Assembly: GCA_005777405.1 (NCBI GenBank)
Contig: SXMH01000007.1
Span: 1-47,761 of the forward strand
Direction of reading: 5' to 3'
From: Actinomycetota bacterium
Lineage (GTDB): Bacteria; Actinomycetota; Actinomycetes; Actinomycetales; Microbacteriaceae
DNA: 47,761 bases
This document shows, piece after piece, positions 6,601 through 40,080 of this stretch. The notes under the pieces were generated by a model. That model saw nothing but the letters and a program-made list of their open reading frames with translations. It did not search any database and was not told where the DNA came from. Each line of letters opens with the position of its first letter. Position 1 is the stretch's first letter. The position numbers and the translations under genes are program-made.

Positions 6601-6754
6601 ACTGCGTGATGACGATGACCTGCGGGAAGGCGACCGAGGGGATGAGCTCTTGCTTGAGCGTCGTGAGCGCGATGCCTCCGAAGAGGCCCACCACGATCGT
6701 GACGAGCGCGATGAGTGCGCGGTTGCGCAAGCTGAACACCGAAAGAAGGTGCAC
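3632..6754 (-). CDS. RND-family (HAE1/SwrC-like) efflux permease
   Basis: This inner-membrane transporter of about 1040 residues has the duplicated RND layout: TM1, a large extracytoplasmic loop, TM2-6, TM7, a second loop, TM8-12. The proton-relay region GRVVDDSIVVVENIK in TM4 carries paired Asp397-Asp398. The family is driven by proton motive force and exports drugs, lipopeptides or other amphiphiles. In Gram-positive bacteria it works without an outer-membrane channel, as in Bacillus SwrC. GTG 6754 was chosen because GGAG lies 5 bases upstream and the protein then begins VHLLSVFSLRNRAL; GTG 6784 gives 10 more residues but has no ribosome-binding site. No membrane-fusion partner gene is adjacent. 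A palindrome at 6895-6904 may be its operator. Confidence 0.9.
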   Translation of the reverse strand: MHLLSVFSLRNRALIALVTIVVGLFGGIALTTLKQELIPSVAFPQVIVITQYPGAAPEIVEQDISTPIETAVQGIPGLDASNATSSTGFSIVSASFTFGTDLVRTEQRVQLAINRLDLPDDVEPQVLTGSIDDFPIVQIAVTSDLDSGALDAALESQAVTELNDVDGVREVSVQGAVGDRVTITPDKDELFERGLSNADITDALDEYGVLLPAGTITEDGFELPVVSGVRIDDAETLAALPLLDANQEGTSIGDVAEVVVESDPVTSYSRVNGEPALTLAITKTPAGNTVEVSRAVQAALPAIAEAIGEGTEFTVVFDQAPFIEKSIESLATEGLLGLAFAVIVILIFLLSVRSTIVTAISIPTSVLLTFIGMQVSGYTLNILTLGAITIAVGRVVDDSIVVVENIKRHLALGEEKTQAILIGVKEVAGAITAATATTIAVFLPIALVGDITGELFRPFALTTAIALGASLFVSLTIVPVLSYWFLRAPKPHKHAAGAEPVEGALTSGPMTLEEESARPTLLQRGYLPVIRWTLRRPVATLLLALLVLGGTGFLATGLKTNFIGDSGQNTLTVTQTLENGSSLEALDEAATVVEDELLGVDGIETVQASIGSGTGTLAGIFGGGDITFSLTTDESFDQVELQQSVRDAIADLEGVGELSVQASQGGGFGGSDIEIDITAQSTDDLETAAQSILDEVRALDETAEATSNLADTQPYLAIEVDRERAAELGLSEVAVGGIVTAAMFPASVGSVVIDETTLSIFIRDVDAPTTVDELREFSIPTAQGPQDLEELATISQVEGPASITTIRGVRSATITVTPAIADIGAASTAVQTAVDEATLPTGAEASLGGVTAQQADAFSQLGLALLAAILIVYVIMVATFKSLRQPLLLLVSIPFAATGAIALQLIADIPLGVPSLIGVLMLIGIVVTNAIMLIDLVNQYRERGMRAHDAVVEGSSRRLRPILMTAAATIFALLPLGIGITGSGGFISQPLAIVVIGGLLSSTILTLIVLPALYYLVEGAKERRAERRAAKAEAAEGAAA

Positions 6755-6894
6755 GGGAACTCCGGACTGTGGGGTAGAGGGCACGTGGTGCGGCGAAGGC
6801 CGCGGGCGCAGTAATGGGGCTGTGGTGCGCGCTCAGGATTCCAGCGCCCGCTGAGTATTCACACAGCGAGCCCTGAGGGCGCACCCCGAATCTT

Positions 6895-14571: not shown

Positions 14572-15552
14572 TCAAGCCGACCCTGTTCCGAGCGGCGGAA
14601 AGTCCAATCCCAGGAAACGTGCGCGGCTAGAGGGCTCACTCGGGGCTGGCTCGCTCCAGCTCAGGTCAATAGTCACTGGCCTTCGGATTGGAACGACAGA
14701 CTGAGCGGAGCGACGACTTGCCACATCAGCTCGAAACTGTTCAGACAGTAGTTCAGAGTCCATCGACTCGCCGGTCGTGTCGAATTCGTAGATTGTGATT
14801 TCCAACCCAACGAAGTACTCCATCATTCGTAATCGCTCAGAGAATCTAATCTTGCTCCAGAAGGGAGATGACGACCACTCTAGAATCTCGGGATCTATTC
14901 CGACGCGAGGGTTGATCTGGATCTCTTCCGGCTCTACATCGCGACCAAACTCAATCCGAGCCAGTCGCCCGACGCCATCAAGCAGTGTTCGCTCCCCCCA
15001 ACTGAACTGCGGATTCGAGTCAAACGGCGCGGCCAACACGGGCTCAGCTTGGGCGACACGAGCCGTGGAAACTGCCATGGTTCGATGACGGTCTACGCGC
15101 GCAAGACGATTGAGCCAGCCGAGAAAGTTGGCATCCAAGTCAGAACCAAAAGGCTGCATCGTGTGGAGCATCTCGCGATGGTGATCGGCAAGTGGGGCGA
15201 GGCGATAAAGGTTCCTCTTCCACGCAGTTTCGTCATCGTAAATCGGATACTGCAGCGATCCTTCTCCGGGAGGGGGGTACTGACGAGAGGTGTGAACGGC
15301 CGCTGCCCAGATCACATAGTCGAGCGCGCTGCGAAGGTTGTAAAGCCACTCGCCAAAGAGAACCGACATCCGAGTAGGCAAAGCTGAACGCTGTAGAACT
15401 TGCAGTTCGTACGTCTTGTCGGATACACGCTGCAACACGAACTCGAATGGATGCGGCTTTAGAAACTCATTCCAAATACAAGCCATTTCAGCGGAGTGCT
15501 CGCCTGCCCGCTCCACTCGCGCCCTCGCAGGGTCAAACTCAACAGCAGACAC
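14572..15552 (-). CDS. Hypothetical protein, lower GC, probably acquired
   Basis: I do not recognise the family. The 326-residue soluble protein has no signal or membrane segment. Residues about 66-86 (FGEWLYNLRSALDYVIWAA) form an amphipathic helix of a type seen in many uncharacterised bacterial proteins, and RVDRHRTMAV follows at about 150-160. Base composition is visibly more AT-rich than the neighbours (many AAT, AGA and ATC stretches), and codon use differs from the GAG/CTC/GCG pattern around it, suggesting transfer. The start is GTG 15552 and is uncertain. It is convergent with crcB and lies just downstream of the glycosidase operon. Confidence 0.75.
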   Translation of the reverse strand: MSAVEFDPARARVERAGEHSAEMACIWNEFLKPHPFEFVLQRVSDKTYELQVLQRSALPTRMSVLFGEWLYNLRSALDYVIWAAAVHTSRQYPPPGEGSLQYPIYDDETAWKRNLYRLAPLADHHREMLHTMQPFGSDLDANFLGWLNRLARVDRHRTMAVSTARVAQAEPVLAAPFDSNPQFSWGERTLLDGVGRLARIEFGRDVEPEEIQINPRVGIDPEILEWSSSPFWSKIRFSERLRMMEYFVGLEITIYEFDTTGESMDSELLSEQFRADVASRRSAQSVVPIRRPVTIDLSWSEPAPSEPSSRARFLGLDFPPLGTGSA

Positions 15553-15591: not shown

Positions 15592-16872
15592 CTAACCCCG
15601 CCCAAACTCCACGCGGTAGTCGCTGATATACACGTGCTCGTCGTCCTTCATGTCTTTGAAGAACAACCGAGCCTCAGCACCCAACCGCAAGCACGTCCGC
15701 TTCGCGGCCAGATCTTCCGCACTGTCGGTCGGCTGCAGCGACGGGTACCAGAGCGTGTGACCGGGGCGGTGCACGATGCGCACCGGCGTCGACCACTGCT
15801 GCGCGTTGTCGCCGAACCCGAGATCCCGATTGGGGTTGATCGACAAGAACAGGCTGTCGCCCACCCAGAAGCTGCCGTCGACACGACCGAGCAGCATGAC
15901 CCACACCTGCAGGTGCTCGTTCCAACTGACGGAAGGGCCCCAGTAGTAGAGCTCATCCCCTTGAGAGACCGCGCCGCCACCCTCTGAGGTGGGGATGCGC
16001 AAGCTCGCGATCGGCTGACCCACGCCGTCCCACTCCGCATCGAAGGCCGTGCCGCTCCAGCGGCGCGCGGCCCCGGTCGGAGCATCCAAGTCGGCCAAAG
16101 GCACGCGCGCCACGCTCACGCACTGCGCCGCCGCCTCCGTCTCGCGATCCCACGACTCGGCGTCCCACGCGGTCGGGTAGGCGTATTCACCGAAGAAGAC
16201 ATACAGGTGATCGCCCGACGCGACTGCGCTCGGGTCGCCGACGCCGCCCGGAAAGCAGTTGTTGCGGTTCACCGGCAGGCGAATCATGCGCTCGTCGCGG
16301 TCTTCGAGCAAGATGCCGTGGTTCACCCACGACTCTCCGCCGTCGGTCGACTTCATGATGCCGATGCGCGGCACCGCCTGCACCGACTCGGGGCCGGTGA
16401 GCCCGGGAGGCCAATCCTCCGAACGCAAGCCCTCACCCGTCGCCTCGTCGAACGGCAGCGTCTCGGGGTAATTCTCGTTGTGATAGAGCGCATAGAGGGT
16501 GCGGCCCGACTCGTCAGACGGGTCTTGGTAGACCGTCTCGAACCACACGGCACCGTGCAGACCCGGCTCGCCCGGAGGCGTGTTCGGCGGCATCGTCGGC
16601 TCGACGAACTCTTCGGGCCGGCGCGAGAACGCCTCGGTCACCGTGGCACCGTCGGCGTGCTTGAGCTCGTGCGCCTCGCCCCACACGGGGTCTTCTCCGT
16701 ACTTGCCGGGGAAGATTCTGAACCGGTCGCCCACCCACGCGGTCGCCATGTTGCAGTCGACGAAACTGCCGAACGTGAACCTCTCGGTGGGCACCAGGGT
16801 CACGGTGATGTCGTCGACCCCCGTCGCAATCACGGTGGGCTCGGTGCGGCTGGTCGCCTCGTCGTGCGTCAT
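15592..16872 (-). CDS. Predicted beta-propeller glycosidase-like protein with an Asp-box (function unknown)
   Basis: The 426-residue protein starts at ATG 16872 with GGAGAG a few bases upstream, 7 bases after the beta-galactosidase stop. It is predominantly beta-strand. One clear Asp-box (STDGGESW, near residue 195) and the segment CFPGGVGDPSAVASGDHLYVFFGEYA suggest a five- or six-bladed propeller of the sialidase / GH43 / DUF4185 type. No signal peptide is seen. As the last gene of an operon with GH36, GH38 and GH2 enzymes it probably hydrolyses or binds a glycan. I cannot assign a catalytic residue set, so the enzyme class is inferred only. Confidence 0.75.
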   Translation of the reverse strand: MTHDEATSRTEPTVIATGVDDITVTLVPTERFTFGSFVDCNMATAWVGDRFRIFPGKYGEDPVWGEAHELKHADGATVTEAFSRRPEEFVEPTMPPNTPPGEPGLHGAVWFETVYQDPSDESGRTLYALYHNENYPETLPFDEATGEGLRSEDWPPGLTGPESVQAVPRIGIMKSTDGGESWVNHGILLEDRDERMIRLPVNRNNCFPGGVGDPSAVASGDHLYVFFGEYAYPTAWDAESWDRETEAAAQCVSVARVPLADLDAPTGAARRWSGTAFDAEWDGVGQPIASLRIPTSEGGGAVSQGDELYYWGPSVSWNEHLQVWVMLLGRVDGSFWVGDSLFLSINPNRDLGFGDNAQQWSTPVRIVHRPGHTLWYPSLQPTDSAEDLAAKRTCLRLGAEARLFFKDMKDDEHVYISDYRVEFGRG

Positions 16873-16879
16873 GACTCTC

Positions 16880-22980
<6,101 letters not shown>

Positions 22981-23029
22981 GGTGGTGTCTCCGCTGTGGT
23001 GGTGGGCGGTGTCGTGGTGGTGACGGTGC

Positions 23030-25096
23030 TTAGTCGAGCGGCGCCAGGTGCAGCATCCACGAGGTGACGCTCGACGCGCCACTGAGCGGGATGCCGCTCT
23101 CGAGCAGCTCGTCACCGCTCGCCTCGTGCCCCGCCCCCGTCGCGAGGTCGGTCACACGGTAGCGACGGTCGGTGTCGAGTGCCTGCGGCGTCACGTGGTC
23201 GGGCCGTGCACCTCCATCGAGCACGATCGCGAGCACAACGTGCGCCTCGCCCGCGCTCAGCTGGAACACGGGAGCCCGCTCGCCGAAGCCGCCGCGCACG
23301 GGGCTGGGGGTGAGAGTGCGTAGCACACCGTCGCGCACGAGCGGCGCGAGCACCTGCTGGTAGAGGCGCACGTGCTCGGCGAGGCGCGCGAGCAGGTCGG
23401 GGCTCAACTCGGGCAGGCGCAGGCTGACACCGAAGCGGTGCACCATCGCCGCGCGCAGCATCGTGTCGAAGGCATCGGTCGTGATCGACGTCCAGTCGTA
23501 CTGCGAGCCCGGGTAGTCGCCGCGCCACTGCGACCACGACCAGTGCAGAATGCCCACCGGCGGCAGCAGGTTGCGCACGCCGTGCAGCACCTGAAGGTGG
23601 TGCTCGGTGTAGTCGGGGTCGCTGAGGAACATGCCGTGCACGTGACGCGCGAGGCCGAGGTCGATGCGCAGGCCGCCCGAGCTGCAGGCTTCGAGCACGA
23701 TGTCGGGGTGGCGTTCGCGCACCTCGTCGAGCACCGCATAGAGGCCCTCGTAGTGGCGCAGCAGTCCGTCGCCGGCGCCGTGGCCGTGGTCGGTGCGCGT
23801 GCAGCCGGCGTCGGGGTCGATGTTGAAGTCGAGCTTGATCCAGCGCGCGCCGGTCGTTGAGATGAGCGTGCTCATCGACTCGAGCACGTGCTCGCGGCCC
23901 GCGGGCGAACCCATGCAGACATAGCCGAGAAAGGTCGGGTCGGCCGGGTCGAGCGACTCGGTCATGAGGCGGTACTGGTGGTCGTGGCGTCGACCCTCGA
24001 CCGAGTGCGCCATGGCCTCGGGGTGCGCGGCCCGCAGCAGCGAGTGCGCGCCGACCGCTTCGGCCTCGATCCACATGCCCGGCAGCACGCCCGCATCGCG
24101 GATGCTCTGCCCGAGCGCCTCGAGGCCCGAGGGGAACCGCGCGGTGTTGACGCTCGACCAGTCGCCGCGCTGTTCGCTCCACACGCTCGTGGGGTCAGCG
24201 GTGCCGAACCAGCCGGCGTCAACCGTGGCGATCTCGATGCCGATCGATGCAGCGACGCGAGCATTCTCGGCGATGACAGCCTCGTCGACCTCTTGGTCTT
24301 CATAGGGCCACCAGTGGTTCCACTCAACCGGCAGGCTGTCGGTGAACTCGGTGCGGGGCATCCAATCGGCGGCGATCGCGCGCTGCATGCTCACGGCCAC
24401 ATCGTCGAGGGTCTCGCCGAGGGCGATAACGACGCCCGGCGCGGTGACGCTCTCACCCGGTGCAAGCTCGACGCGCAGCAGCCACGGCGAGATGCCCGCG
24501 GTGACGAAGCCGCCGGCCATGGCGTGAATGTGCCAGTTGCCGCTGTAGGCGGGGGTGACGGCGACCGCGGCGCGGTGGTCGTGAGCTCCGTAGCCGTTCG
24601 CGTCGGCCGCACCGCGCTCGAGGCCGAGCCACGGCACTGTGCCTTGCGAGCTGCGCCCGGCGCGGCTCTCGAGACTGAGGTCGTGGCCCGCGTGCCCGGC
24701 GGGAACCGCGCGATACTCGTCGCCCCACGCGGAGCGGTACGAGTGCGTGCGCCACGCTGGTCCGGCAGCGAGCGCGAGCGGGTCCATGCGCGTGATGCCG
24801 ATCGGATGCTCGCCATCGTTGCGCAGCACCATCGAGAGTTCCCACACGGGCTGGTCGGCCACTCGGCGAGCGCTCCAGTCGACGTCGACGCGCTCACCCG
24901 CGGCCGTGCCGTCGAGGTGTCCGCGCAACCGCAGCTGGTCGTCGCTCTGCTCGATGATCGGCTCGATGAGGGCGCTGTAGCCGCGCCGCTCGATCTCTAC
25001 CAACAGGGGAGCTGCCTCACTCAGCACGTGGCCGTCGAGATCGAGGGTCAGGGTGCCGCCGTCGTGGGGCAGCAAACGCAACGTTGCGCGGGTCAT
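23030..25096 (-). CDS. GH36 alpha-galactosidase
   Basis: The 688-residue protein has an N-terminal beta-supersandwich domain (about 1-260), a TIM barrel (about 270-590) and a C-terminal beta domain. The catalytic nucleophile is Asp423 in KLDFN, and the acid/base is in SDPDYTEHH (Asp493 or Asp495). GH36/clan D enzymes release terminal alpha-galactose with retention. It is the first gene of the leftward glycosidase operon; ATG 25096 has GAGGA 8 bases upstream. A GntR box overlaps its promoter 26-40 bases upstream. No signal peptide is present. A 49-base GTG-rich spacer separates it from the mannosidase gene. Confidence 0.93.
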   Translation of the reverse strand: MTRATLRLLPHDGGTLTLDLDGHVLSEAAPLLVEIERRGYSALIEPIIEQSDDQLRLRGHLDGTAAGERVDVDWSARRVADQPVWELSMVLRNDGEHPIGITRMDPLALAAGPAWRTHSYRSAWGDEYRAVPAGHAGHDLSLESRAGRSSQGTVPWLGLERGAADANGYGAHDHRAAVAVTPAYSGNWHIHAMAGGFVTAGISPWLLRVELAPGESVTAPGVVIALGETLDDVAVSMQRAIAADWMPRTEFTDSLPVEWNHWWPYEDQEVDEAVIAENARVAASIGIEIATVDAGWFGTADPTSVWSEQRGDWSSVNTARFPSGLEALGQSIRDAGVLPGMWIEAEAVGAHSLLRAAHPEAMAHSVEGRRHDHQYRLMTESLDPADPTFLGYVCMGSPAGREHVLESMSTLISTTGARWIKLDFNIDPDAGCTRTDHGHGAGDGLLRHYEGLYAVLDEVRERHPDIVLEACSSGGLRIDLGLARHVHGMFLSDPDYTEHHLQVLHGVRNLLPPVGILHWSWSQWRGDYPGSQYDWTSITTDAFDTMLRAAMVHRFGVSLRLPELSPDLLARLAEHVRLYQQVLAPLVRDGVLRTLTPSPVRGGFGERAPVFQLSAGEAHVVLAIVLDGGARPDHVTPQALDTDRRYRVTDLATGAGHEASGDELLESGIPLSGASSVTSWMLHLAPLD

Positions 25097-25135: not shown

Positions 25136-25175
25136 AAGGGCTCGCGCCCGAATGCTCTCCTGCGAGGATCTTCTT

Positions 25176-26300
25176 GTGACTACCACTCCCGCTACCCCCC
25201 ATTCCGCACGCGATCGAGTCGAGGGCCCCTTGCGCGTGGGCGTCATCGGGCTCGGCATGGGCTCGGTGCACGTCGAAGCCTTCAGCCGCGTGCCGGGCGT
25301 CGAGGTCGTGGCTCTCGCCGGCAAGGAGGTCGAACGCCGCACGCAGCTCGGCGAGCAGTGGGGCATCCCGCACCTGCTCGACGAGTGGGCCGACCTCGTG
25401 GCCCTGCCCGACGTCGACATCGTCAGCATCGCCGCCCCCAACTCGCTGCACCACCCCATCACGATGGCGGCGCTCGCGGCCGGCAAGCACGTGTTCTGCG
25501 AGAAGCCCCTCGCGCTCGACACTCCGCAAGCGCGCGAGATGGTCGAGGCGGCGATCGCGCATGACCGCGTGCTCGAAGTGGCGTTCAACCACCGTCGCCG
25601 CGCTGACGTGCAGTACGCTAAGCGCTACCTCGACGAGGTCGGCATCGGTCGCATCTACCACTCGCGTGCCTCGTGGAAGCGGCGCGCGGGCATTCCGGGC
25701 CTGCACTCGTGGTTCACGAGCAAGCGCATGTCGGGTGGCGGTGCCCTCATCGACCTCGGGCCGCACGTGCTCGACTCACTGCTCTTCCTGCTCGGTGAGC
25801 GCCGCGTCGTCGCCGTGAGCGCCGTCGCGCACGGCGAGCTGGGCCGCGCGGGCTACGGCGCGATGGATCGCCGCGAGCAGATGGCGGGCGACTCGGGAGC
25901 CTTCGAGGTGGAAGACCTCGCGAGTGCGCTGTTCCGCTTCGACGACGGCTCGAGCGCCGCGTTCGAGATCACCTGGGCGAGCCACGCGGTCGACGACGAA
26001 GACATCTCGATCGAACTGCTCGGCGTCGACGGCGGCGTGCGACTCTTCGTGCCGCGCTATGCGAGTGACGACACACTGCGCTTCTACCGCGACGTCGCCG
26101 GGCGCCCCGTCGAGATCGCGCCCGACGTGCACGTGCCGGGCGGCGAACACCCCATCGTCATCGCCGAGTTCATCGAGCACGTGCGCTCGGGCGAATGGGA
26201 GCACCACCGCGGCGAGTTTGCCCTGCACCGCACCGAAGTGCTCGACGCGTGCTACCGCTCGGCCGCCGAAGGCCGCGAGATTCGACTGGAGACCGCATGA
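25176..26300 (+). CDS. Gfo/Idh/MocA-family sugar oxidoreductase
   Basis: The 374-residue protein has an N-terminal Rossmann fold ([16 protein letters not shown] at about 20-35), the family motif CEKPLALD with Lys110, and a C-terminal alpha/beta substrate domain with [14 protein letters not shown]. Members oxidise or reduce sugar or cyclitol hydroxyls with tightly bound or exchangeable NAD(P). GTG 25176 has GAGGA upstream; ATG 25152 would add 8 residues without a ribosome-binding site. It is coupled by ATGA to a ThuA-like gene, as in thuA-thuB loci where the oxidoreductase makes 3-keto-glycosides. The substrate here is not determinable. GntR box 1 lies upstream. Confidence 0.9.
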
Positions 26301-27052
26301 CCACCCCCGCCCCTGCCCCCCTGCGCGTGACCGTCTGGAACGAGAACCGTCACGAGAACTACCCCGACTCGCTCACCGCCAAGCTCTACCCGACCGGGAT
26401 GCACGGCGCGATCGCCGAGGGACTCACCTCGCTGCTCGGCCAGGCCGTCGAAGTGCGCACCGCCACGCTCGACGAGCCCGAGCACGGGCTGCCGCAGTCG
26501 GTCGTCGACTCGACCGACGTGCTGCTGTGGTGGGGCCACGAGGCGCACCCCGAGGTGCACGACGAGGTCGTCGACCGCGTCTACGACGCGGTGCTCGGCG
26601 GTATGGGCATCATCGTGCTGCACTCGGGCCACTACTCGAAGATCTTCAAGAAGCTCATGGGCACGACGTGCTCACTGCGCTGGCGCAACGACGGCGACCG
26701 CGAGATCGTGTGGACGGTCGACCCGACCCACCCCATCGCAGCCGGTGTGCCCGACCCACTCGTCATCGAGGCTCAAGAGATGTACGGCGAGTTCTTCGAC
26801 ATCCCCACCCCTGACGAGCTCATCTTCATCTCGTCGTTCACGGGCGGCGAAGTTTTCCGCTCCGGCGCGACCTGGACTCGCGGTCACGGGCGAGTGTTCT
26901 ACTTCTCGCCGGGCGACCAGGAGTACCCGGTGTACCACCAGCCGGGCATCCACCGCGTGCTCGCCAACGGCGTGCAGTGGGCGGCACCGACGCGGCGTGG
27001 GCCGGCGATCGACGCGACCTTCCACGCGCGCGGCTGGTTCGAAACCGCCTAG
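26297..27052 (+). CDS. ThuA-like protein (class I glutamine amidotransferase fold)
   Basis: The 251-residue protein begins at ATG 26297, overlapping the previous stop. It shows ThuA signatures: TVWNENRHE near the start, [10 protein letters not shown] at about 72-82, [20 protein letters not shown] at about 107-127, and a late [14 protein letters not shown]. ThuA proteins accompany Gfo/Idh dehydrogenases in disaccharide use, originally trehalose in rhizobia; the family lacks amidotransferase activity. A role acting on a keto-sugar made by the preceding enzyme is inferred. Full length, no signal peptide. Confidence 0.9.
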
Positions 27053-27400: not shown

Positions 27401-28255
27401 TTAGCGGCTGACGCCGACCTGCAGACCTTGCATGATGTACTTCGACGCGAAGGCCAGCAGCAGCAGCGGCACCGAGGCCGTGATGAAGAGGCCCGCCGAC
27501 ACGAGCGGCTGGTCGGTGAGGAAGCGTTCACCGATGCTCGCGAGCTGCGGTGTGAGCAGCCGCATCGACTCTTCGGGAATGAGGATGACCGCGAAGATCA
27601 GCTCGTTCCACGCGCCGAGGAACTGCAGTACGGCGAGCGTCGCGAGTCCGCTCGACCCCATCGGCGCGATGATCGACCACATGATGCGGAAGAACCCTGC
27701 GCCGTCGATGCGTGCCGCCTCGATGACCTCATCGGGGATGCCGCGGAACGACAGCGTGAGGAAGAACGTGGCGAACGGGAGCCCGGTCGCGACGTACACG
27801 AGGATCAGGCCGGTGTAGCTGCCGACGATCTCGAGCCTGGCGAGCATGAGGTAGATCGGAATGATGAGCACGGGGCCAGGAATGAGCATGACCGACACGA
27901 AGGTGGCGGTGATGTACTTCTGCCCCGGCACCGGCAGCTTCGCGAGCGCGTAGCCGGCGAGCGACGCGAGCACGAGGATGATCGAGACCGAGATCGTTCC
28001 GACGAACAGGCTGTTGAGAAACGCCTGGCCGATGCCGTACGTGTTGACGAGGTTGAGGTAGTTCTCGAACGTCCAGACACCTGGCAGACCGAAGGGGTCT
28101 TGCAGGTAGTCAGAGTTCGGCCTGAACGACGTGATGATCACGAAGTACAGGGGGTAGATGATCGTCGCAGCCACGACGAGCAGCGCGATGAAGATCGGCC
28201 ACTGCGTGCGGCTCGACGAGATGCGCTTGCTGATGACGACGTCTTCTTCAGCCAT
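27401..28255 (-). CDS. Carbohydrate ABC transporter permease (MalG-type)
   Basis: The 284-residue protein has six membrane segments and the permease EAA loop EVIEAARIDGAGFFRIMWSIIAP. The C-terminal SKYIMQGLQVGVSR is typical of MalG-like subunits. It starts two bases after the stop of the first permease gene, so it is the last gene of the binding protein-permease-permease operon. It forms the channel for an oligosaccharide together with that subunit. No ATPase is encoded nearby, so a shared MsiK-type ATPase elsewhere in the genome is inferred. Confidence 0.93.
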   Translation of the reverse strand: MAEEDVVISKRISSSRTQWPIFIALLVVAATIIYPLYFVIITSFRPNSDYLQDPFGLPGVWTFENYLNLVNTYGIGQAFLNSLFVGTISVSIILVLASLAGYALAKLPVPGQKYITATFVSVMLIPGPVLIIPIYLMLARLEIVGSYTGLILVYVATGLPFATFFLTLSFRGIPDEVIEAARIDGAGFFRIMWSIIAPMGSSGLATLAVLQFLGAWNELIFAVILIPEESMRLLTPQLASIGERFLTDQPLVSAGLFITASVPLLLLAFASKYIMQGLQVGVSR

Positions 28256-28257
28256 GA

Positions 28258-29202
28258 TCAGTCGTCCTCCCCGAGCTTGAAGACCCTGTTCTGGATGAGC
28301 GTCAGGATGCCGATGAACAAGAACAGGATGACCGCGAGCGCCGCGCCCGAACCGAGGTTCGTGCTCGAGAAGGCCCGCAGATAGACGAGGTAGTCGATCG
28401 TGGTGGTGTCGAAGCCGGGTCCACCCGCCGTCATGACGTAGACGAAGCCGAAGAGCGACGAGAACGTGTAGATCACGTTGATGATGAACACGAAGCCGAG
28501 CACGCGGCGAATGTTGGGCAGCGTGATGTACCAGAGCCGCTTCCACCACCCGGCACCGTCGATCGCGGCCGCCTCGAAGACGGCGGGGTTGATCGAGGTG
28601 AGGCCTGCGAGCAGCAGCAGGGACTGGTAGCCGAAGCCCGCCCAGACGAGCGCGAGGATGATGATCGCAATCGCGGTCGAACCGTTCGTGAAGAACTGGA
28701 TGGGCTCGATGCCGAAGAGCGCGAGCGCCTGGTTCACGCCGCCGTAGTAGCCAAAGGCATTGCGGAACATGATGCCGATGACGGCGACCGAGAGCACATT
28801 CGGCAAGAAGAAGATGACGCGGAAGTACTTCCAGCCGCGCACTCGCTCGAACAGCAGCACCGAGACGATGAGCGCCGTGAAGATGACGAGCGGCACCGAG
28901 ATGAGGAACGTCACGTTGTTGAGGAAGACCTGATGCACGATCGGGTCGTTCAGCAGCGCGATGTAGTTGTCGAGGCCGCGGAACTCGAACCTCAGTCCAT
29001 TGGTCTTCGTGAACGAGATGAAGACGGCGAACGCGACGGGGAAAGCCATGAAGCCGACCACGACGAGGAAGGCCGGAAGCACAGCGAGCAGACCGACAAT
29101 GCGGTCACGCCGGCGGATGCCTCCGGGCTTGTGGCGCGGGGCCCCGCCCGTGGGCGCCGCCGAAGCGGCGCCCACGCGCGAGGTGACAGAAGCCGTGGTC
29201 AC
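28258..29202 (-). CDS. Carbohydrate ABC transporter permease (MalF-type)
   Basis: The 314-residue membrane protein has six segments, a first segment at about 33-55 (IVGLLAVLPAFLVVVGFMAF) and the EAA loop FEAAAIDGAGWWKRLWYITLPNI. Its GTG start overlaps the stop of the binding protein gene (GTGA). It pairs with the following MalG-type permease in the importer induced with the glycosidases. Confidence 0.93.
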   Translation of the reverse strand: MTTASVTSRVGAASAAPTGGAPRHKPGGIRRRDRIVGLLAVLPAFLVVVGFMAFPVAFAVFISFTKTNGLRFEFRGLDNYIALLNDPIVHQVFLNNVTFLISVPLVIFTALIVSVLLFERVRGWKYFRVIFFLPNVLSVAVIGIMFRNAFGYYGGVNQALALFGIEPIQFFTNGSTAIAIIILALVWAGFGYQSLLLLAGLTSINPAVFEAAAIDGAGWWKRLWYITLPNIRRVLGFVFIINVIYTFSSLFGFVYVMTAGGPGFDTTTIDYLVYLRAFSSTNLGSGAALAVILFLFIGILTLIQNRVFKLGEDD

Positions 29203-30533
29203 AGGTTCGCGATCTCGGATTCGTACGATGCCTTGAGCTGCGCGACCGCGTCCTCCGGCGTGATGCTGCCGATGAAGACACCGGCGTTCACGCGGTAGAA
29301 CAGGTCGATCGTGGCCTGCGGCATCACGCTGTCGAAGGCGAAGGTGACGCCGTCGGTGGCTGCCGAGAGCTGCTCGAACTGCTGACGCAGCAGCGGGCTC
29401 TCGATCTTCGACGGGTCGCCGTCGACGTGGTTCGAGCCCTGCGTCTGGTAGAGCTCAACGAACACGTCCTGGTTCTCGGCCTGCGCGAGGTAGGTCAAGA
29501 ACTCAGCAGCGAGCTCCTGGTTGTCGCTGTAGTTGGTGATCGACAGGGCGATCTCCGGGCCACCAGCACCGATGTTCGGGAATGCCGAACCCTCGAGCGT
29601 CGGGATGAAGAACGAGCTCACGCCCTCTTCGCCGAAGGCGTCGAGCATGTTGTTGTTCTCCCAGCTACCGACGAGGTAGTAGGCGCTGCTGCCGTTGACG
29701 AATCCAGCGGTCGACTCACCGTTCGACACCTGACCGGCGTCGGGGTTGGTGAGACCACTTGCGCCCCACTCGGCGAAGGCCTCGTAGGCCTTGACCATGG
29801 CCGGGTCGTCCACGGGAATGTCACCCGCGTACATCTGGGTGAAGACCGACTCGCCGAGTTCGCCACCGACGAGCGCCGAGATCATCCACGCACCGACATA
29901 GCCCTCGAGGTTCGCAACCCAGAAGCCGTTCTTGTCAGTGTTGTCGACGACCTGCTGGCCGTTCGCGATGAGCTCTTCCCACGTCGTGGGCGGGTTGGCC
30001 GGGTCGAGACCAGCCTCAGCGAGCACCTCGTGGTTCTGGAAGACCGTGAAGAGGTTGCCGGCGCCATAGGGCATGCCGAGCAGCGCGCCGTCGGGGCTGT
30101 AGCCCGCGCGGTTCACGTTGACACCGGCAAGGTTGTCGAGAACCTCGGGAGCAATGAGTTCGTCGAGGTCGGTGAAGAAGTCAGCGAACGAGAGGGTCGG
30201 GCCACCCGCGTACTGAATGCGGATGTCGGGGCCGTCGCCGGCGATCGAGGCGGCCTGGAACTGCGCGGCGGCCGAGGTGATGTCGCCACCCTGCTGCACG
30301 ACCGTGATGTCGACGCCCGGGTTCTCTTCTTCGAACTGCACGGCCATCTTGTCGATGAACGAGTTCTCGAGGTCGGGGTCACCGTTCTCGAGGGTACGGC
30401 CAAGAATGCCGGTGGCCCAGATGAGCAGCTCGCCGCCCGTCTCTTCTGCCGGCTCGCCCGTCGAGCACGCCGCGAGGCTGCCGACGAGGCCGAGGGTCGC
30501 GATGATCGCGACTGTAGCCTTCCGTGTCTTCAT
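29199..30533 (-). CDS. Extracellular solute-binding lipoprotein of a sugar ABC importer
   Basis: The 444-residue protein starts at ATG 30533 with AAGGAC upstream. It has a lipoprotein signal: a basic N-terminus, a hydrophobic run and the lipobox LAAC with Cys22. The mature part is a type I (MalE/UgpB-like) binding protein, with FEEENPGVDITVV and ENFFVPTLEGS-like segments around the cleft. It captures the oligosaccharide outside the membrane. It is the first gene of the importer operon. A leader of about 250 bases separates it from GntR box 2. Confidence 0.93.
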   Translation of the reverse strand: MKTRKATVAIIATLGLVGSLAACSTGEPAEETGGELLIWATGILGRTLENGDPDLENSFIDKMAVQFEEENPGVDITVVQQGGDITSAAAQFQAASIAGDGPDIRIQYAGGPTLSFADFFTDLDELIAPEVLDNLAGVNVNRAGYSPDGALLGMPYGAGNLFTVFQNHEVLAEAGLDPANPPTTWEELIANGQQVVDNTDKNGFWVANLEGYVGAWMISALVGGELGESVFTQMYAGDIPVDDPAMVKAYEAFAEWGASGLTNPDAGQVSNGESTAGFVNGSSAYYLVGSWENNNMLDAFGEEGVSSFFIPTLEGSAFPNIGAGGPEIALSITNYSDNQELAAEFLTYLAQAENQDVFVELYQTQGSNHVDGDPSKIESPLLRQQFEQLSAATDGVTFAFDSVMPQATIDLFYRVNAGVFIGSITPEDAVAQLKASYESEIANL

Positions 30534-30789
30534 TGCTGTGTCCTTCCTAGTGGAGGACCGGGCCGACGACCGGCCGGTCGGGAGTCCGCGAACAGCGCAC
30601 CAGCACCTCGCTGGACGAGCGCGCGTGTCGCGTGCTTCACGCGGGCTGGGTCGCCCGTGGAAGATCGAAGGGCAATGGGGGAGTGCAGGCAGGCCGCGAC
30701 GCCGGCAACGGCCGGTGCGCTCCACATCAACTGCGACATCATCGTCCCATTTCGTTCAGACCACGGTGTCCCCGGGGTCGGTGCAACTA

Positions 30790-30878: not shown

Positions 30879-30972
30879 CCTGCTCCGCACGGTGGCGGTC
30901 ACGGGCTCGCGCTCGCATCCGCTGCCCGCGACGCACGCACCAGTCCACCAGCGCGAAGGCGGCACACAGCCC

Positions 30973-32172
30973 ATGATCATCGACTCCGTCGACTTCTACT
31001 ACGCGTCGATGCCCGAGGTCACCCTCGAGGCCGACGGCAGTCAAGATGCGCTGCTCGTGCGCGTCGTCGCTGATGGCGTCGAAGGGTGGGGCGAATGCGA
31101 GGCGTCGCCGCTCACCTCGATCGCCGCCTTCGTCGCCCCGCGGTCGCACGGCGTGTGCCAACCGGTCGCCGCCTCGGTGCTCGGCGAGACCGTCGACGGC
31201 CCCGACGACATTCTGCGCATCGGCCGCAACGTCGCGCGCAACAGCATGGACCTGCTGCAAGCCGCCCACACCTGGTCGGGCATCGAGATCGCGCTGTGGG
31301 ACCTGCTCGGCAAGCTGCGTGACGAGCCCGTGTGGCGCATGCTCGGCTACACCGAGAATCACGCGAAACTGCCCTACGCCTCCATGCTCATGGGCGACAC
31401 CCCGCAAGAGACCCTCGACCGCGCTCGCCTCGCCCGCTCCAACGGCTTCCTCGCCGTGAAGTTCGGCTGGGGCGCCTACGGCACGGCCGACCCGCGCGAC
31501 GACGCTGACCACGTCGCCGCCGCGCGCGAGGGTCTGGGTGACGACGCGCAGCTGCTCATCGACGCCGGCCAGATCTGGGGCGATGACCTCGAGCTCGCTG
31601 TCGCGCGACTCGAAGCGCTCGAAGACGCCCGCGCCACATGGTTGGAAGAGCCCTTCGTGCCGCACGCCTTCGTCGCACACGCCGCGCTCGCGTCGCGCGC
31701 GCGCACCGTCGGCATTGCCGGTGGTGAAGGTGCCCACAGCGTGCACATGGCGACCAACCTCATCGACTACGGCGGCGTGCGCTTCATCCAAATCGACACG
31801 GCACGCATCGGCGGCATCGGCCCGGCGAAGGCAGTGGCCGACCACGCCGTGCGCCACGGTGTGACGTACGTCAACCACACCTTCACCTCGCACCTCGCAC
31901 TCTCGGCATCGCTGCAGCCCTTCGCCGGCCTCGCCGAGCACCGCATCTGCGAATACCCGGTCGAACCGAAGGCCGTTGCCCTCGCGATCTCGTCGAACCA
32001 CCTGCTGCCCGATGAGAACGGCGAAGTGCGCGCCCCCGACGCACCCGGCCTGGGCATCCAGGTCGACCTCGAAGGTCTCGCCCCTTACTTGCGCACCGTC
32101 GAGATTCAGATCGATGGTGAGAGCGTCTACGCGAGCCCCGGCGTGCCCCTTAAGGTGAGTGAAAGCGTCTAG
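30973..32172 (+). CDS. Enolase-superfamily (mandelate racemase/muconate lactonizing-type) sugar-acid dehydratase
   Basis: The 399-residue protein has the N-terminal capping domain (MIIDSVDFYYA...) and a TIM barrel. Probable Mg2+ ligands are Asp197 (LLIDAGQIW), Glu225 or Glu226 (WLEEPF) and Glu252 (GGEGAH). A His-Asp dyad is suggested by Asp275 (QIDTARIGG) and His302 (VNHTFTSH). In the second-strand position usually KxK there is AVKFGWG with only Lys163. Known relatives dehydrate aldonates or aldarates to 2-keto-3-deoxy acids; substrate is not determined, though galactonate or fuconate would suit the locus. GAAGG lies 12 bases before the ATG. It is first gene of the operon with the GntR repressor. 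Confidence 0.9.
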   Translation: MIIDSVDFYYASMPEVTLEADGSQDALLVRVVADGVEGWGECEASPLTSIAAFVAPRSHGVCQPVAASVLGETVDGPDDILRIGRNVARNSMDLLQAAHTWSGIEIALWDLLGKLRDEPVWRMLGYTENHAKLPYASMLMGDTPQETLDRARLARSNGFLAVKFGWGAYGTADPRDDADHVAAAREGLGDDAQLLIDAGQIWGDDLELAVARLEALEDARATWLEEPFVPHAFVAHAALASRARTVGIAGGEGAHSVHMATNLIDYGGVRFIQIDTARIGGIGPAKAVADHAVRHGVTYVNHTFTSHLALSASLQPFAGLAEHRICEYPVEPKAVALAISSNHLLPDENGEVRAPDAPGLGIQVDLEGLAPYLRTVEIQIDGESVYASPGVPLKVSESV

Positions 32173-32190: not shown

Positions 32191-32958
32191 ATGGCGGACA
32201 TCGCCGTCGATGCCGACCGTTCCTCCGGCTATGCCATGCGCGGCCTGCAGGCCCGTGTCATCGATGGCATCGGTCGCCAGATCGTCGGAGGCGCCTACGC
32301 CCCGGGCGACCTGCTGCCGAAAGAAGCCGAGCTCACCGAGCAGTTCGACGTCTCGCGCACCTCGGTGCGCGAGGGCATGCGCGTGCTCGCCGCAAAAGGC
32401 CTCGTCGACATTCGGCAGAAGATCGGCACGCGCGTGCGCCCGACCGAGCACTGGAACGTCTTCGACAGCGACATCTTGCGCTGGCACAGCGAGGTCGGCC
32501 GCGGGTACGAGATCATGCGCAACCTCGTCGAGGTGCGGCAGATCATGGAACCCGCCGCCGCTCGCCTCGCCGCGGGTCGCGCGAGCATGGACGACTTGCG
32601 CAAGCTCGACGACGCACTGCACCGCATGTCGACGAGCCCGAATGACCGCGAGGCCTACGCCCACGCCGACGTCGACTTTCACCTCGCCGTCTACGCCGCC
32701 TCGCACAACGTGCTGCTGCGCCAGTTCGGCAGCGTGGTCGCCGACTTCATGTACACCTCGTTCAATGTGCAGCAAGCCGTCGTCGGCGACGACGACGTGC
32801 TCGCGCAAGATGCCGACTCGCACGCGGCAGTCTTCGAGGCCATCAACAGCGGCAACGGAGAGCGCGCCGCCGAGACCATGCTGCGTGTCGTGCTCGACGG
32901 CAAGAACTCGCTCATCAAGGCGCTCGGCGAGCAGCGCGATGCCGCGAGCGCGCGCTAA
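32191..32958 (+). CDS. FadR/FCD-type GntR transcriptional regulator, probable master repressor of the glycan locus
   Basis: The 255-residue protein has an N-terminal winged helix (ARVIDGIGRQIVGGAYAPGDLLPKEAELTEQFDVSRTSVREGMRVLAAKGLVDIRQKIGTRVRP is the region 21-85) and an all-helical FCD domain at about 100-245, with likely metal ligands in DVDFHLAVY (Asp and His near 155) and DSHAAVF (His near 211). FCD regulators usually sense sugar acids or other carboxylates and repress catabolic operons. The gene follows the dehydratase by 18 bases with GGGAGGAGG upstream of the ATG. The boxes with core GTATGATGTAA at 25122, 30790 and 30868 are its probable sites. Confidence 0.92.
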   Translation: MADIAVDADRSSGYAMRGLQARVIDGIGRQIVGGAYAPGDLLPKEAELTEQFDVSRTSVREGMRVLAAKGLVDIRQKIGTRVRPTEHWNVFDSDILRWHSEVGRGYEIMRNLVEVRQIMEPAAARLAAGRASMDDLRKLDDALHRMSTSPNDREAYAHADVDFHLAVYAASHNVLLRQFGSVVADFMYTSFNVQQAVVGDDDVLAQDADSHAAVFEAINSGNGERAAETMLRVVLDGKNSLIKALGEQRDAASAR

Positions 32959-32988: not shown

Positions 32989-33939
32989 GTGAGCGCTCAA
33001 GCGCCCGTCACTCTGCGACACGGCGCACTCGAGGCGACCGTGCTGGCCGACGAGGGCGGCGTGCTCGTGGATGCCCTGCTCGACGGCCGCCCCCTGCTCA
33101 CTCGCACGCCCTGGGCCTCGAGCGTCGTGCCGTCGGCGCGACCCGCGGCGACCGAGGCCGAGTGGGTCTCGCGCTGGCGCGGCGGCTGGCAGCTGTGCTT
33201 TCCGACGGCGGGGCAGCCCGACCCGGCATCCGCTGAGCCGCAAGGCTTCCACGGCACGGCCTCGCAAGCCCCCTGGTTGCTCGTGTCGCACGACGCGAGT
33301 TCGGCCGCCCTCGGCTGGGCAGACCGCGACGGTCTCAGCGCTGAGCGGGTGTGGCGACTCGGCTATGGCCCGAACGGTGACGCCCGCATCGAGGTCGCCA
33401 CGCGCGTGCGCAATGAAGGTGTCGCGACGCGCACGATCGTCGCCGCCGAGCACCTCATTCTCGGTGGAGACGTGCTCGCCGGCCCGCTCGAGATCACCGT
33501 GCCGGGCGGAGCCCAACTGCGGCCGCTCGACTATGACGGACTGCCGGCCGGCGCACTCACGCCGTGGCCGGGCGACCCTGCCGAGCGCTGGCCGACCGTC
33601 ACGCGGGCGACGCCCGCGCGCGTGACGGGGCTCGCGAACGTGGGCGGCGCTCGCGTGGGTGGCCAGCGGCTCGAGCTGCGCGGCGCTCACGTCGAGGCAT
33701 CCGTGCAGTGGCAGGGTGCGCTGCCCCACGCGCTGCTCTGGGAAGAGCTGGGCGTCTCGACCGAGTCGCCGTGGAACGGCGAGGTCGTCGCCCTCGGCAT
33801 CGAACCGACCACGACCCCGCACGGCGCGGGCACGGCGCACGACGAGGGCCTCGTGCACCTCGCGCCGGGTGCCACGCTCGAGTGGGGCGTCACGCTCAAC
33901 GTGCGGTGGGCATCCACCGCGGAAGGAGGCGGAGCATGA
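32989..33939 (+). CDS. Aldose 1-epimerase-like (galactose mutarotase fold) protein
   Basis: The 316-residue beta-sandwich protein starts at GTG 32989 with GGGAGG upstream. It shows mutarotase-fold features: VLADEGGVLVDALLDGRPLL near the start, WRGGWQLCFPTAGQP and GFHGTASQAPW in the middle (the His in GFHG aligns with a usual active-site His), and a late EELG motif. Members interconvert sugar anomers or bind sugars. Placed between the GntR and SDR genes, it probably supplies the anomer needed by the dehydrogenase. Sequence similarity to well-known GalM looks weak, so the substrate is open. Confidence 0.82.
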   Translation: MSAQAPVTLRHGALEATVLADEGGVLVDALLDGRPLLTRTPWASSVVPSARPAATEAEWVSRWRGGWQLCFPTAGQPDPASAEPQGFHGTASQAPWLLVSHDASSAALGWADRDGLSAERVWRLGYGPNGDARIEVATRVRNEGVATRTIVAAEHLILGGDVLAGPLEITVPGGAQLRPLDYDGLPAGALTPWPGDPAERWPTVTRATPARVTGLANVGGARVGGQRLELRGAHVEASVQWQGALPHALLWEELGVSTESPWNGEVVALGIEPTTTPHGAGTAHDEGLVHLAPGATLEWGVTLNVRWASTAEGGGA

Positions 33940-34658
33940 CCGCTCTGCGCACGATCGTCACCGGAGCCGCCAACGGCATCGGCGCCGCCATCGCCGACCG
34001 GCTGCGCGAGCGCGGCGACACCGTCGTCGGTCTCGACCGCGAAGCCGGAGAGAACATCATCGAGGTCGACCTCAGCGACGAGGCCGCTCGCGCTGCCGCC
34101 GTTGACGACGCCCTCGCCCGACTCGGCGGCGTCGACGTGCTCGTCACCGTGGCCGGCATCTTTCGCCAGGGCTCGATTCACGACAGCGGCTTCGACGACT
34201 GGCGCGCCGTCTGGGCGGTGAACCTGGATGCTCCGCTCGACCTCATGCGCCAACTCACCCCGCACATGGTCGAACAGCGATTCGGTCGCATCGTCACCAT
34301 CACGAGCGTGCACGCGCGCCAGGCTCAGCCCGGCTGCCTCGCCTACGACGTCTCGAAGGCCGGACTCGAGGCGGCGACCCGCTCGGCCGCACTCGACTTG
34401 GCGCCCTATGGCGTGCTCGCCAACGCCGTCGCGCCCGGCTTCGTACGCACGCGCATGAGCCTGCTGCCCGATGGCACCGACGAGACCGACACCGAGGCTT
34501 TTCGCACCGGCTATGTCGAGCGGGGCAAGCTGCCGCTCGGTCGCGCGGCCATGCCGGCCGAGATCGCACCCGCCGTCGACTTCCTCTCGTCGCGCGACAA
34601 CACCTACACAACCGGGCAGGTGCTGACCGTCGACGGCGGTCTCACCATGACGTTCTAG
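33936..34658 (+). CDS. Short-chain dehydrogenase/reductase (SDR)
   Basis: The 240-residue protein is a classical SDR: cofactor motif TGAANGIG at about 8-15, a VAGIF segment in place of NNAG at about 71-75, and catalytic Tyr137 and Lys141 in YDVSK, with an upstream Ser in ITSVHA. The C-terminal VDGG is typical. The Asp at the end of the second strand (LDREAG) suggests NAD+ preference. ATG overlaps the previous stop by ATGA. In this operon it probably oxidises a free sugar to a lactone or a deoxy-keto acid further down. Confidence 0.92.
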   Translation: MTALRTIVTGAANGIGAAIADRLRERGDTVVGLDREAGENIIEVDLSDEAARAAAVDDALARLGGVDVLVTVAGIFRQGSIHDSGFDDWRAVWAVNLDAPLDLMRQLTPHMVEQRFGRIVTITSVHARQAQPGCLAYDVSKAGLEAATRSAALDLAPYGVLANAVAPGFVRTRMSLLPDGTDETDTEAFRTGYVERGKLPLGRAAMPAEIAPAVDFLSSRDNTYTTGQVLTVDGGLTMTF

Positions 34659-34667
34659 GAGACCGCG

Positions 34668-35564
34668 ATGACCACTTCGCTGCGTGAGCTCGACCGTCTC
34701 GACGGCCTCGGATTTCCCGAAGCGCTGCGTTGGCGCGACGGCGCGCTCTACTTCAGCGACATGTTCCGCTCGCGCGTCATGCGCTGGGTGCCCGGCAGTG
34801 CGGCCGAGGTCGTGCTCGACCGCGCGGGCGGCGGACCGGTCACGCCCGGGGGCCTCGGCTGGCTACCCGACGGCGACCTGCTCGTCGTCGACTGCGACGA
34901 GCGCCGGGTGCTGCGACTCCACAGCTCGGGAGAGGTCACCGTGCACGCCGACCTCTCGACACTCATGAGCCACTCCGCCAACGACATGCACGTCGACCCT
35001 GACGGCACGGCCTGGGTGGGGGGCTACGGCTTCAACCCCGAGACCGACGAGCCTGTTGCCTCGCCGCTCGTGCGCGTGCATCCCGACGGCTCGGTCGCGA
35101 CCACCCCGGCGGGGTTCGTCTTTCCCAACGGCTGTGAGCGCACGGCTGCCGGCGACCTTCTCGTGGCCGAGACCTTCGCCGACACCGTGCAGCGGTTGAG
35201 CCCCTCCGGTGAGCGCTCGGTTCGCGCGCACTTCGCCGAGGGCAGCGGGCCCGACGGCCTCTCGATCGCGCCCGACGGCGCGGTCTACGTGGCGCTCGCC
35301 TTCGCGGGCGCTCTCGCGCGACTGGCCGACGACACCGAAGGCGTGGATGCTGCGCCGACGATCATCCACCGCCCAGCGCCGATCGCCGAGGGCCCAGGAG
35401 CCGGCGCGCTCGGGGTCTACGACTGTGCCGTTTACCCCGACAGCACTGTGCACCCCGACGCCGCCCCGAACGGCGGCACCCGCATCGCCGTCGCCATGGC
35501 GAGCCTCGACGAAGACCTCGCGATGCGCGTCGACACGGGTGCCGTCGTGCTGCTGGAGCTCTAG
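34668..35564 (+). CDS. SMP-30/gluconolactonase-family lactonase
   Basis: The 298-residue six-bladed beta-propeller has the family features FPEALRWRDGALYFSDM (a metal-binding Glu near residue 18), PGGLGWLPDGDLLVVD, NDMHVDPDGTAWVGG (metal Asn near 105) and GPDGLSIAPDGAVYVA (Asp near 200). These enzymes open sugar lactones using a divalent cation. The ATG has GGAG 8 bases upstream, 9 bases after the SDR stop. A dehydrogenase, lactonase and dehydratase in one operon outline an oxidative sugar route. Its stop overlaps that of the convergent permease gene. Confidence 0.92.
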   Translation: MTTSLRELDRLDGLGFPEALRWRDGALYFSDMFRSRVMRWVPGSAAEVVLDRAGGGPVTPGGLGWLPDGDLLVVDCDERRVLRLHSSGEVTVHADLSTLMSHSANDMHVDPDGTAWVGGYGFNPETDEPVASPLVRVHPDGSVATTPAGFVFPNGCERTAAGDLLVAETFADTVQRLSPSGERSVRAHFAEGSGPDGLSIAPDGAVYVALAFAGALARLADDTEGVDAAPTIIHRPAPIAEGPGAGALGVYDCAVYPDSTVHPDAAPNGGTRIAVAMASLDEDLAMRVDTGAVVLLEL

Positions 35565-37569: not shown

Positions 37570-37573
37570 TGGT

Positions 37574-38800: not shown

Positions 38801-38833
38801 GATGTTTCCTTTCGATGGGTGATTGCCGGGGCC

Positions 38834-39889: not shown

Positions 39890-39980
39890 CTCCGCCCCCT
39901 TTGGTGGTCTCATCAATCGGTTCGCCGGCACTGGCTTCGAGCCCCGCACCGACCGCGCAGCGCGGCATCGGGGTTCGCAT

Positions 39981-39994
39981 TTTGATCGATCAAA
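39981..39994. promoter_or_regulatory. LacI-type operator TTTGATCGATCAAA
   Basis: This perfect 14-bp palindrome with a central CG step, the usual core of LacI-family operators, lies in the 191-base gap between the LacI gene and the divergent hydrolase. A -10-like TAGTGT (40003-40008) follows on the rightward strand. It is the only strong operator in the gap and could control both transcription units. Confidence 0.8.
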
Positions 39995-40080
39995 TTATTC
40001 GGTAGTGTTACCCACGACGACACCGGTGTCAAGCCCGACCGGCACCGACACCTTCACGACGGCCCGGAGGCTCGACGACC

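Follow-up and report, generated by a model that had tools for sequence, protein, structure and literature searches.

Among described proteins, the system closest to the one reported here is family GH183 (DUF4185, PF13810), whose member EndoMA1, an endo-D-arabinanase (8hhv, 8ic1), is a five-bladed propeller. For EndoMA1, Asp33 of a TDLG motif is reported as the nucleophile and Asp51 of an FGDT motif as the suggested acid/base; Glu243, a third essential carboxylate, lends support to Arg198, and the sugar stacks against Trp138 and Tyr293 (PMC10509167). In the GH183 enzyme DgGH4185b, activity was reported to be lost with both Asp changes and to be broadly retained with the Glu change (PMC10115798). 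The protein studied here, hereafter the target, resembles GH183 in being, by prediction, a five-bladed propeller with EndoMA1 as top fold match and DUF4185 as best of four profiles tested, in the conservation of the aromatic pair and in an aspartate, Asp39, which by motif spacing may correspond to Asp33. It differs from GH183 in that a PF13810 match is missing, in that Asp51, Glu243 and Arg198 are not conserved, in its predicted cytosolic location in Actinobacteria and in its partner genes, which are not those of the published GH183/GH172/GH116 cluster (PMC10509167). Since the acid/base Asp51 of GH183 is not conserved, the target is a relative and not a member of that family.

The window, i.e. 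the whole stretch of 47,761 nucleotides analysed, belongs to an actinobacterial genome of 2.48 Mb in 219 contigs (81.5% complete). The target gene runs on the minus strand from an ATG at 16872, 5' of which stands a Shine-Dalgarno-like GGAGAG, to a TAG ending at 15592, and a gap of 7 nt lies between the stop of the GH2 gene (16880) and this ATG. An earlier note on this DNA described the target as the fourth member of a glycosidase operon and as having one Asp-box. The gene is real, and three glycosidase genes (GH36-like/Melibiase, GH38 and LacZ-type GH2; Table 1) lie upstream of it on the same strand. The single Asp-box, S-T-D-G-G-E-S-W, is likewise confirmed at residues 175-182; the Pfam BNR model detects it in no more than 4 of 33 members, at E values of 0.12 and above. 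The ORF downstream of the target (14572-15552, minus strand) has no Pfam or NCBIfam match. Further away in the window, 3632-6784 (minus strand) encodes an AcrB-type RND transporter (ACR_tran, 698.7 bits), a kind of pump unusual in actinobacteria.

Table 1. The target gene and the cluster around it, in positions of the window.
Feature	Position	Strand	Match	Remarks
Propeller protein (target)	15592..16872	-		426 aa; five-bladed by prediction; no signal peptide seen
GH2, LacZ-type beta-galactosidase	16880..19939	-	Glyco_hydro_2_C 1.8e-92; Bgal_small_N 1.1e-45	
GH38 alpha-mannosidase	19936..23115	-	Glyco_hydro_38N 1.2e-96	start codon not settled
GH36-like (Melibiase) glycosidase	23030..25096	-	Melibiase 6.8e-31	
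Gfo/Idh/MocA oxidoreductase	25152..26300	+	3.8e-27	synteny
ThuA-family protein	26195..27052	+	9.9e-34	synteny
ABC permease	27401..28549	-	BPD_transp_1 5.5e-12	orthologue just before target in L012, L013
ABC permease	28258..29202	-	BPD_transp_1 7e-8	
ABC solute-binding protein	29199..30725	-	SBP_bac_8 7.1e-24	
Enolase-superfamily protein (MR_MLE), sugar-acid dehydratase-like	30892..32172	+	MR_MLE_C 4.8e-47	
GntR/FCD regulator	32191..32958	+		
SDR dehydrogenase	33564..34658	+	adh_short_C2 5.7e-50, residues 134-361	ORF probably over-long at 5' end
SGL/gluconolactonase-like protein	34668..35564	+	9.7e-25	

In the searches made, the target protein stands apart from known families. It yields no significant match in Pfam, PHROGs or PDB sequences and a single chance row in NCBIfam, and 33 members of its family as well as their profile produce chance-level rows only in Pfam, NCBIfam and PDB sequences (PHROGs were searched with the window protein). 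That no known family is matched, as had been stated from the sequence, is true for these databases. A PDB sequence search with the alignment gave just two chance matches, both chlorophyll-binding proteins (E 0.54 and 0.68). NCBIfam rows dismissed as chance or Asp-box noise were those for PEDO-1 (in 4 of the 33 members, with a best E of 0.044 and a cut-off of 550 bits), for the F510_1955 glycosylhydrolase (in 4 of the 33, with a best E of 0.077) and for Ycf48 (in one of the 33, E 0.096). PF13810 matches neither the window protein nor, over its cut-off, any of the 33 members, and nothing in the target's own genome at E 0.001; PF04616 (GH43) and PF04041 (GH130) are likewise without a match in the window protein and the 33 members. 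BNR_2 (PF13088) picks out one of the 33 members at E 0.071, and the target has one Asp-box only, in contrast to the several of sialidase/BNR (GH33-like) proteins. The searches with these Pfam models indicate no membership of GH183/DUF4185, GH43, GH130 or BNR_2. Plasmid records contain no relative of the target at E 0.01, and we found no paper naming its family, a family without a model not being searchable by name.

The species collection holds 185 related loci. The best 80 of these 185, which are 55 to 91% identical, comprise 13 from Actinobacteria (L002-L014) and 67 from Bacteroidota, 66 of the latter so named and one, L016, assigned by its position in the tree only; titles of the nearest loci (86 to 91% identity) name Microcella, Microbacterium, Microbacteriaceae or Actinomycetota MAGs. 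Among whole genomes, 13 contain one strong match apiece, and 98 residues are invariant across an alignment of 86 rows, from which eight loci (L083, L084, L086, L087, L089, L090, L091 and L093) were left out as duplicates. From the 185 related stretches, the matches in 13 whole genomes and the 98 invariant residues it follows that the conservation of the target is far beyond chance. In the tree of the 86 rows, which is midpoint-rooted so that its root gives no direction, the 19 actinobacterial rows form one side of a branch with a support of 100/100; a single transfer or a single split between the phyla therefore suffices to account for the distribution. Only 4 of 148 Bacteroidota genomes possess the target (the centre genome counted), and beyond these no relative is found in the 148 at E 1e-10 except for a second copy in G236 (L116, L117), which is decayed and contains internal stops. 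In 8 of 9 Bacteroidota genomes there are weak profile matches as well (E 9e-4 to 0.09); they lie in open frames of 852 to 1200 aa, cover profile positions 138-197, around the Asp-box, and were not regarded as paralogues. As far as seen, the family is patchy and sharply bounded.

AlphaFold2 models were obtained for the window protein (pLDDT 93.2, pTM 0.92) and for a Bacteroidota relative (pLDDT 88.4, pTM 0.88); the two draw largely on the same alignment rows and do not count as independent. Both bear out the earlier guess of a propeller, and by our reading the order of predicted strands fits five four-stranded blades closed by an N-terminal strand (23-34). Compared with the PDB by VIA-align, in which entries less than 1 Z apart count as tied, both models give EndoMA1 the top rank (Z 20.7 and 20.6; rmsd 3.5 to 3.7, 277 aligned) and BT_0996 of Bacteroides thetaiotaomicron (5mui, 5mt2) the second (Z 19.9 and 20.1), so that GH183 and BT_0996 are not rankable against each other. 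BT_0996, a glycoside hydrolase which we take to be GH137, aligns over 284 to 288 residues at Z 19.8 to 20.1 and thus ties with EndoMA1; it shows 11 to 13% identity with the target, the comparison with it covering the fold. GH43 comes third (Z 19.6 and 19.5). The GH43/GH62 arabinofuranosidases and galactanases share the fold with Z about 18 to 19.6 but are set apart by the missing PF04616 match, a low profile score and the first strand of blade 4, which in the target reads W-G-P-S and is without an invariant acid. Foldseek, in turn, places the GalNAc deacetylase 6n1b first (E 1e-6). As its top match is a deacetylase and not a glycosidase, likeness of fold is no proof of function. A viral structure library returned remote propellers only.

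Profiles of known propeller families were built from loci, with 33 rows for DUF4185, 23 for GH130, 25 for GH43 and 24 for BNR_2, after loci that were short or cut had been removed (7 of 30 for GH130, 5 of 30 for GH43 and 3 of 27 for BNR_2, and for DUF4185 5 of 38, of which 4 were short and one, L146, was not given). In hhalign comparisons, which are single-template comparisons of four families and not database searches, the target scores 95.7% against DUF4185 (P 8.5e-9), compared to 59.2% against BNR_2, 11.8% over 31 columns against GH130 and 2.9% against GH43; with the 86-row alignment the values are 95.6, 60.2, 11.4 and 2.0% for DUF4185, BNR_2, GH130 and GH43, respectively. Masking of the Asp-box leaves 71.4% (P 3.6e-5) for DUF4185, while the BNR_2 value collapses from 59.2 to 0.5%. 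Six column shuffles of the target alignment (A1), used as a control against DUF4185, do not exceed 1.3%. Between the known families themselves the values range from high (GH130-GH43 93.8%, DUF4185-GH43 88.9%, BNR_2-DUF4185 82.2%) to lower ones (BNR_2-GH43 48.1%, BNR_2-GH130 23.7%, DUF4185-GH130 0.5%). Judged by all these figures, the between-family values included, the nearest of the four families tested is DUF4185/GH183, and the apparent kinship is at the level of families within the fold.

To relate the target to EndoMA1 residue by residue, the numbering of the latter was tied to the DUF4185 profile via a PDB alignment showing the change of the D51N mutant. In the hhalign alignment Trp138 corresponds to Trp154 and Tyr293 to Trp375 of the target, both of which are invariant. 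Arg198, in contrast, falls on Ala248 and Glu243 on Gln304 (Gly312 with the gap closed), so neither is conserved. As hhalign leaves the first blade unaligned, the equivalents of TDLG and FGDT were placed by the spacing of the motifs, which is 18 residues in both proteins. In our reading of this spacing, which is not a superposition, Asp33 would correspond to Asp39 of the VDCNMA motif and Asp51 to Lys57 of an F-P-G-K motif present in 86 of 86 rows. Identical in all 86 rows are Asp39, Lys57, Glu60, Asp61, His106, Glu112, His131, Glu133, Asp213, Glu229 and Glu246; eight of these are acids, so that invariant acidic residues are numerous. With the aromatic pair conserved and Asp51, Glu243 and Arg198 not, the sugar pocket seems to be kept and the catalytic set changed. 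As to the triad of GH43 (Asp base, Asp modulator, Glu acid), Asp39 and Asp213-Pro214 could fill two of the places, and blade 3 has a GDP motif similar to the Asp-Pro motif of GH43.

The genes around the target allow a guess at the substrate. The GH38 protein is similar to the alpha-mannosidases 7ufs (773 bits) and 7ufr (747 bits) of the PDB, presumably both Bifidobacterium longum enzymes, and the GH36-like protein is nearest in the PDB to the alpha-galactosidase AgaA (116 bits). Taken with the LacZ-like GH2 and the sugar-acid genes, these matches suggest that the cluster acts on an oligosaccharide with mannose and galactose. The Gfo/Idh/MocA and ThuA genes (25152-27052, plus strand) are a conserved pair beside the GH36-like gene, which presumably recalls the ThuB/ThuA route via 3-keto-glycosides. 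Between the regulator and the SDR gene, 32989-33939 (plus strand) gives a sub-threshold match to DUF4432 (27.1 bits, cut-off 32.5) and is perhaps aldose epimerase-like. Beyond the lactonase gene, 35561-41970 comprises a second ABC set (two permeases and a binding protein), a regulator of the LacI type and a GDE/MGH1-like glycosidase for which NCBIfam gives no match; this block partly travels with the cluster.

As evidence, the operon alone turned out to be weak, since none of the 23 window genes searched was found near the target in L002 to L005 (L002 spans only 3.4 kb, and L004 shows 1.1 kb upstream). Co-occurrence across the genus was therefore used in its place. The target is present in 14 of 26 genomes of the genus, and the GH36-like gene as well as the enolase-superfamily gene occur in the very same 14; as members of a single cluster, the latter two do not provide independent evidence. 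Random dealing of labels would give so perfect an overlap with a chance of 1.0e-7, a figure which ignores descent and serves as a guide only. The tie to the glycosidases proposed in the earlier note hence stands, although it is not to three glycosidases alone but to a whole pathway which includes transport, oxidation and dehydration.

In 8 of the 14 genomes (our own, G005, G012, G013, G015, G016, G020 and G021) the target lies at the glycosidases, the linkage in G016 resting on a GH2 gene which adjoins the target on L008. It is located elsewhere in the other six (G007, G009, G011, G017, G022 and G025): about 930 kb and about 870 kb away in the single-contig genomes G017 and G022, respectively, and in G009 on another of four contigs than the glycosidases. 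For G007, G011 and G025 the placement rests on L004, L005 and L002, which are assumed to be identical with the contigs that carry the target and show no GH2 gene directly upstream. As the target keeps company with the cluster even where it lies apart from it, the link is more than one of neighbourhood. The six displaced targets form one group in the target tree (support 83/88, not starred), so that a single relocation suffices. In the 12 genomes fetched (G020 not among them) the cluster runs in the order GH2-GH38-GH36-like, Gfo/Idh-ThuA, two permeases and binding protein, enolase-FCD, followed by the SDR and lactonase genes wherever the stretch reaches that far; ends of contigs or stretches cut many of them, and in G009 the cluster is split over two contigs. 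The set of G015 (L191) is diverged (target 72%, GH36-like 65%, enolase 74%) and its target groups with Microbacterium in the tree (94/72, long branch), which hints at a second, separate joint acquisition of target and cluster. Outside the genus, in Salinibacterium (L012), a MAG (L013) and Pseudactinotalea (L014), the target stands beside ABC, enolase or GH36-like genes that are arranged differently, and the GH36-like gene is present in all four other actinobacterial target-bearing genomes tested (those of L010, L011, L012 and L014).

The Bacteroidota copies differ both in their N-termini and in their neighbours. The protein starts with a hydrophobic stretch in 66 of 67 of them and with a lipobox in the remaining one, whereas neither is found in the window protein and four actinobacterial loci by the same script, which evaluates hydropathy and lipobox and is not a signal-peptide predictor (the start of L012 is badly placed). 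In the region before the conserved core of the 13 actinobacterial loci, read by eye, no hydrophobic stretch was seen. A cytosolic location of the Bacteroidota copies was rejected on the basis of these N-termini; they look exported, and the actinobacterial copies look cytosolic. No orthologue of the GH36-like gene is found in 11 target-bearing Bacteroidota genomes (one 28% match) or in 13 without the target. No gene is adjacent to the target in more than 4 of the 67 Bacteroidota loci, the commonest being metallophosphoesterase-like (4 of 67) and others accounting for 3 or 2 loci each, mostly in near relatives; the widest gene cluster anywhere in the flanks reaches 8 of 67. A same-strand neighbour within 150 bp occurs in 40 of the 67 loci and falls into 39 clusters; in a scan of 37 of these, by a single representative apiece, each Pfam family appeared in two clusters at most. 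A DUF2911 gene directly follows the target in L017 and L077. In three related Cyclobacteriaceae (L068, L069 and L081) a sulfatase gene starts 9 bp after it. The Bacteroidota neighbours point to no single partner and, given also that the GH36-like orthologue is missing, the pathway link does not extend to this phylum. A protein that, as it seems, is active outside the cytosol in Bacteroidota but within it in Actinobacteria fits a self-contained catabolic enzyme.

On balance, we consider the target to be probably a carbohydrate-active, glycoside-cleaving enzyme which represents a new family of five-bladed propellers distantly related to GH183 and takes part in one oligosaccharide pathway. A candidate new glycoside hydrolase family, as proposed in the earlier note, hence is still the best reading, the tests made (within Pfam, NCBIfam, PHROGs and PDB) showing no membership of GH183, GH43 or GH130. 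In Microcella-like bacteria, the ABC transporter of the cluster would import an oligosaccharide of which the target would cut a glycosidic bond in the cytosol, beside the GH36-like, GH38 and GH2 enzymes, and the sugars set free would be processed further by the Gfo/Idh, ThuA, SDR, lactonase and enolase-superfamily proteins. The oligosaccharide may sit between Trp154 and Trp375, with Asp39, by spacing at the position of the GH183 nucleophile, as putative base or nucleophile. Because the acid/base position of GH183 by spacing falls on Lys57, the proton donor would be another invariant residue, the candidates being Glu60, Asp61, Glu112, Glu133, Asp213, His106 and His131. In Bacteroidota, where these partners are missing, the protein seems to act outside the cytosol. 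More tentatively, and as a possibility which we rate below an even chance, the target might be the founding member of a family which retains the GH183 pocket but has exchanged the catalytic set, an invariant lysine occupying the place of the acid/base and the donor lying elsewhere, and which comprises an exported lone branch in Bacteroidota and an actinobacterial branch working in a cytosolic pathway.

The fold would also accommodate chemistry other than glycoside hydrolysis. That the target is a sugar de-O- or de-N-acylase comparable to the GalNAc deacetylase of Flavonifractor plautii, and removes a group which would otherwise hinder the exo-glycosidases, is unlikely, if the least so of the alternatives. 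The top rank of 6n1b in Foldseek speaks for it and the invariant His106, His131 and Glu60 could bind a metal; moreover, a GalNAc deacetylase is named among the structural neighbours of EndoMA1 in the EndoMA1 paper (PMC10509167). Yet in VIA-align 6n1b attains Z 18.3 and 18.6 for the two models, at least 2 below GH183 in both searches; its identity with the target amounts to 11%. A glycoside phosphorylase of the GH130 type, in which phosphate stands in for an acid and a base that are missing and is bound by the invariant Lys57, Arg169, Arg402 or Lys406, would make sense of the several invariant basic residues and suit a cytosolic site, and GH130 mannoside phosphorylases are indeed fold neighbours (up to Z 18.6 for 3was; 3wau is third in Foldseek). 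However, PF04041 finds no match in the target and the GH130 profile covers 31 columns at 11.8% compared to the 95.7% of DUF4185, so that this option, raised in the earlier note, is not supported so far; since the Bacteroidota copies look exported, phosphorolysis there would presumably waste the phosphate sugar, and we regard it as improbable.

Slightly more improbable again is a lyase or epimerase-like enzyme acting on an oxidised (3-keto or acidic) sugar supplied by the Gfo/Idh partner. It would account for the Gfo/Idh and ThuA genes being part of the conserved cluster and, possibly, for Lys57 at a place where GH183 has an acid, but PL25 (ranks 21 and 26) is the sole lyase family among the 50 Foldseek matches listed, and we assume that ThuA may already perform such a step. 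Least probable of all appears a non-catalytic propeller, a decayed GH183 relative kept for sugar binding. Loss of the known catalytic residues with retention of the aromatic pair is what such a protein would display, but the 98 invariant residues in 86 rows, the eight listed acids and two histidines among them, fit an enzyme better, and a cytosolic binding protein has no clear use in an operon of exo-glycosidases.

The reading of the target as a glycoside-cleaving relative of GH183 goes beyond the earlier note, which missed the kinship to DUF4185/GH183, the exported relatives in Bacteroidota and the tie to a whole pathway. A family unseen by the profile libraries searched would thereby gain a predicted fold and a nearest relative, together with a pathway and a shortlist of residues to examine, and its strict co-occurrence with one catabolic cluster makes its function directly testable by growth and deletion. 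If the target indeed cleaves glycosides by means of a rearranged active site, it would be an example of a five-bladed propeller changing its chemistry and may become a tool for a sugar linkage uncut by known families.
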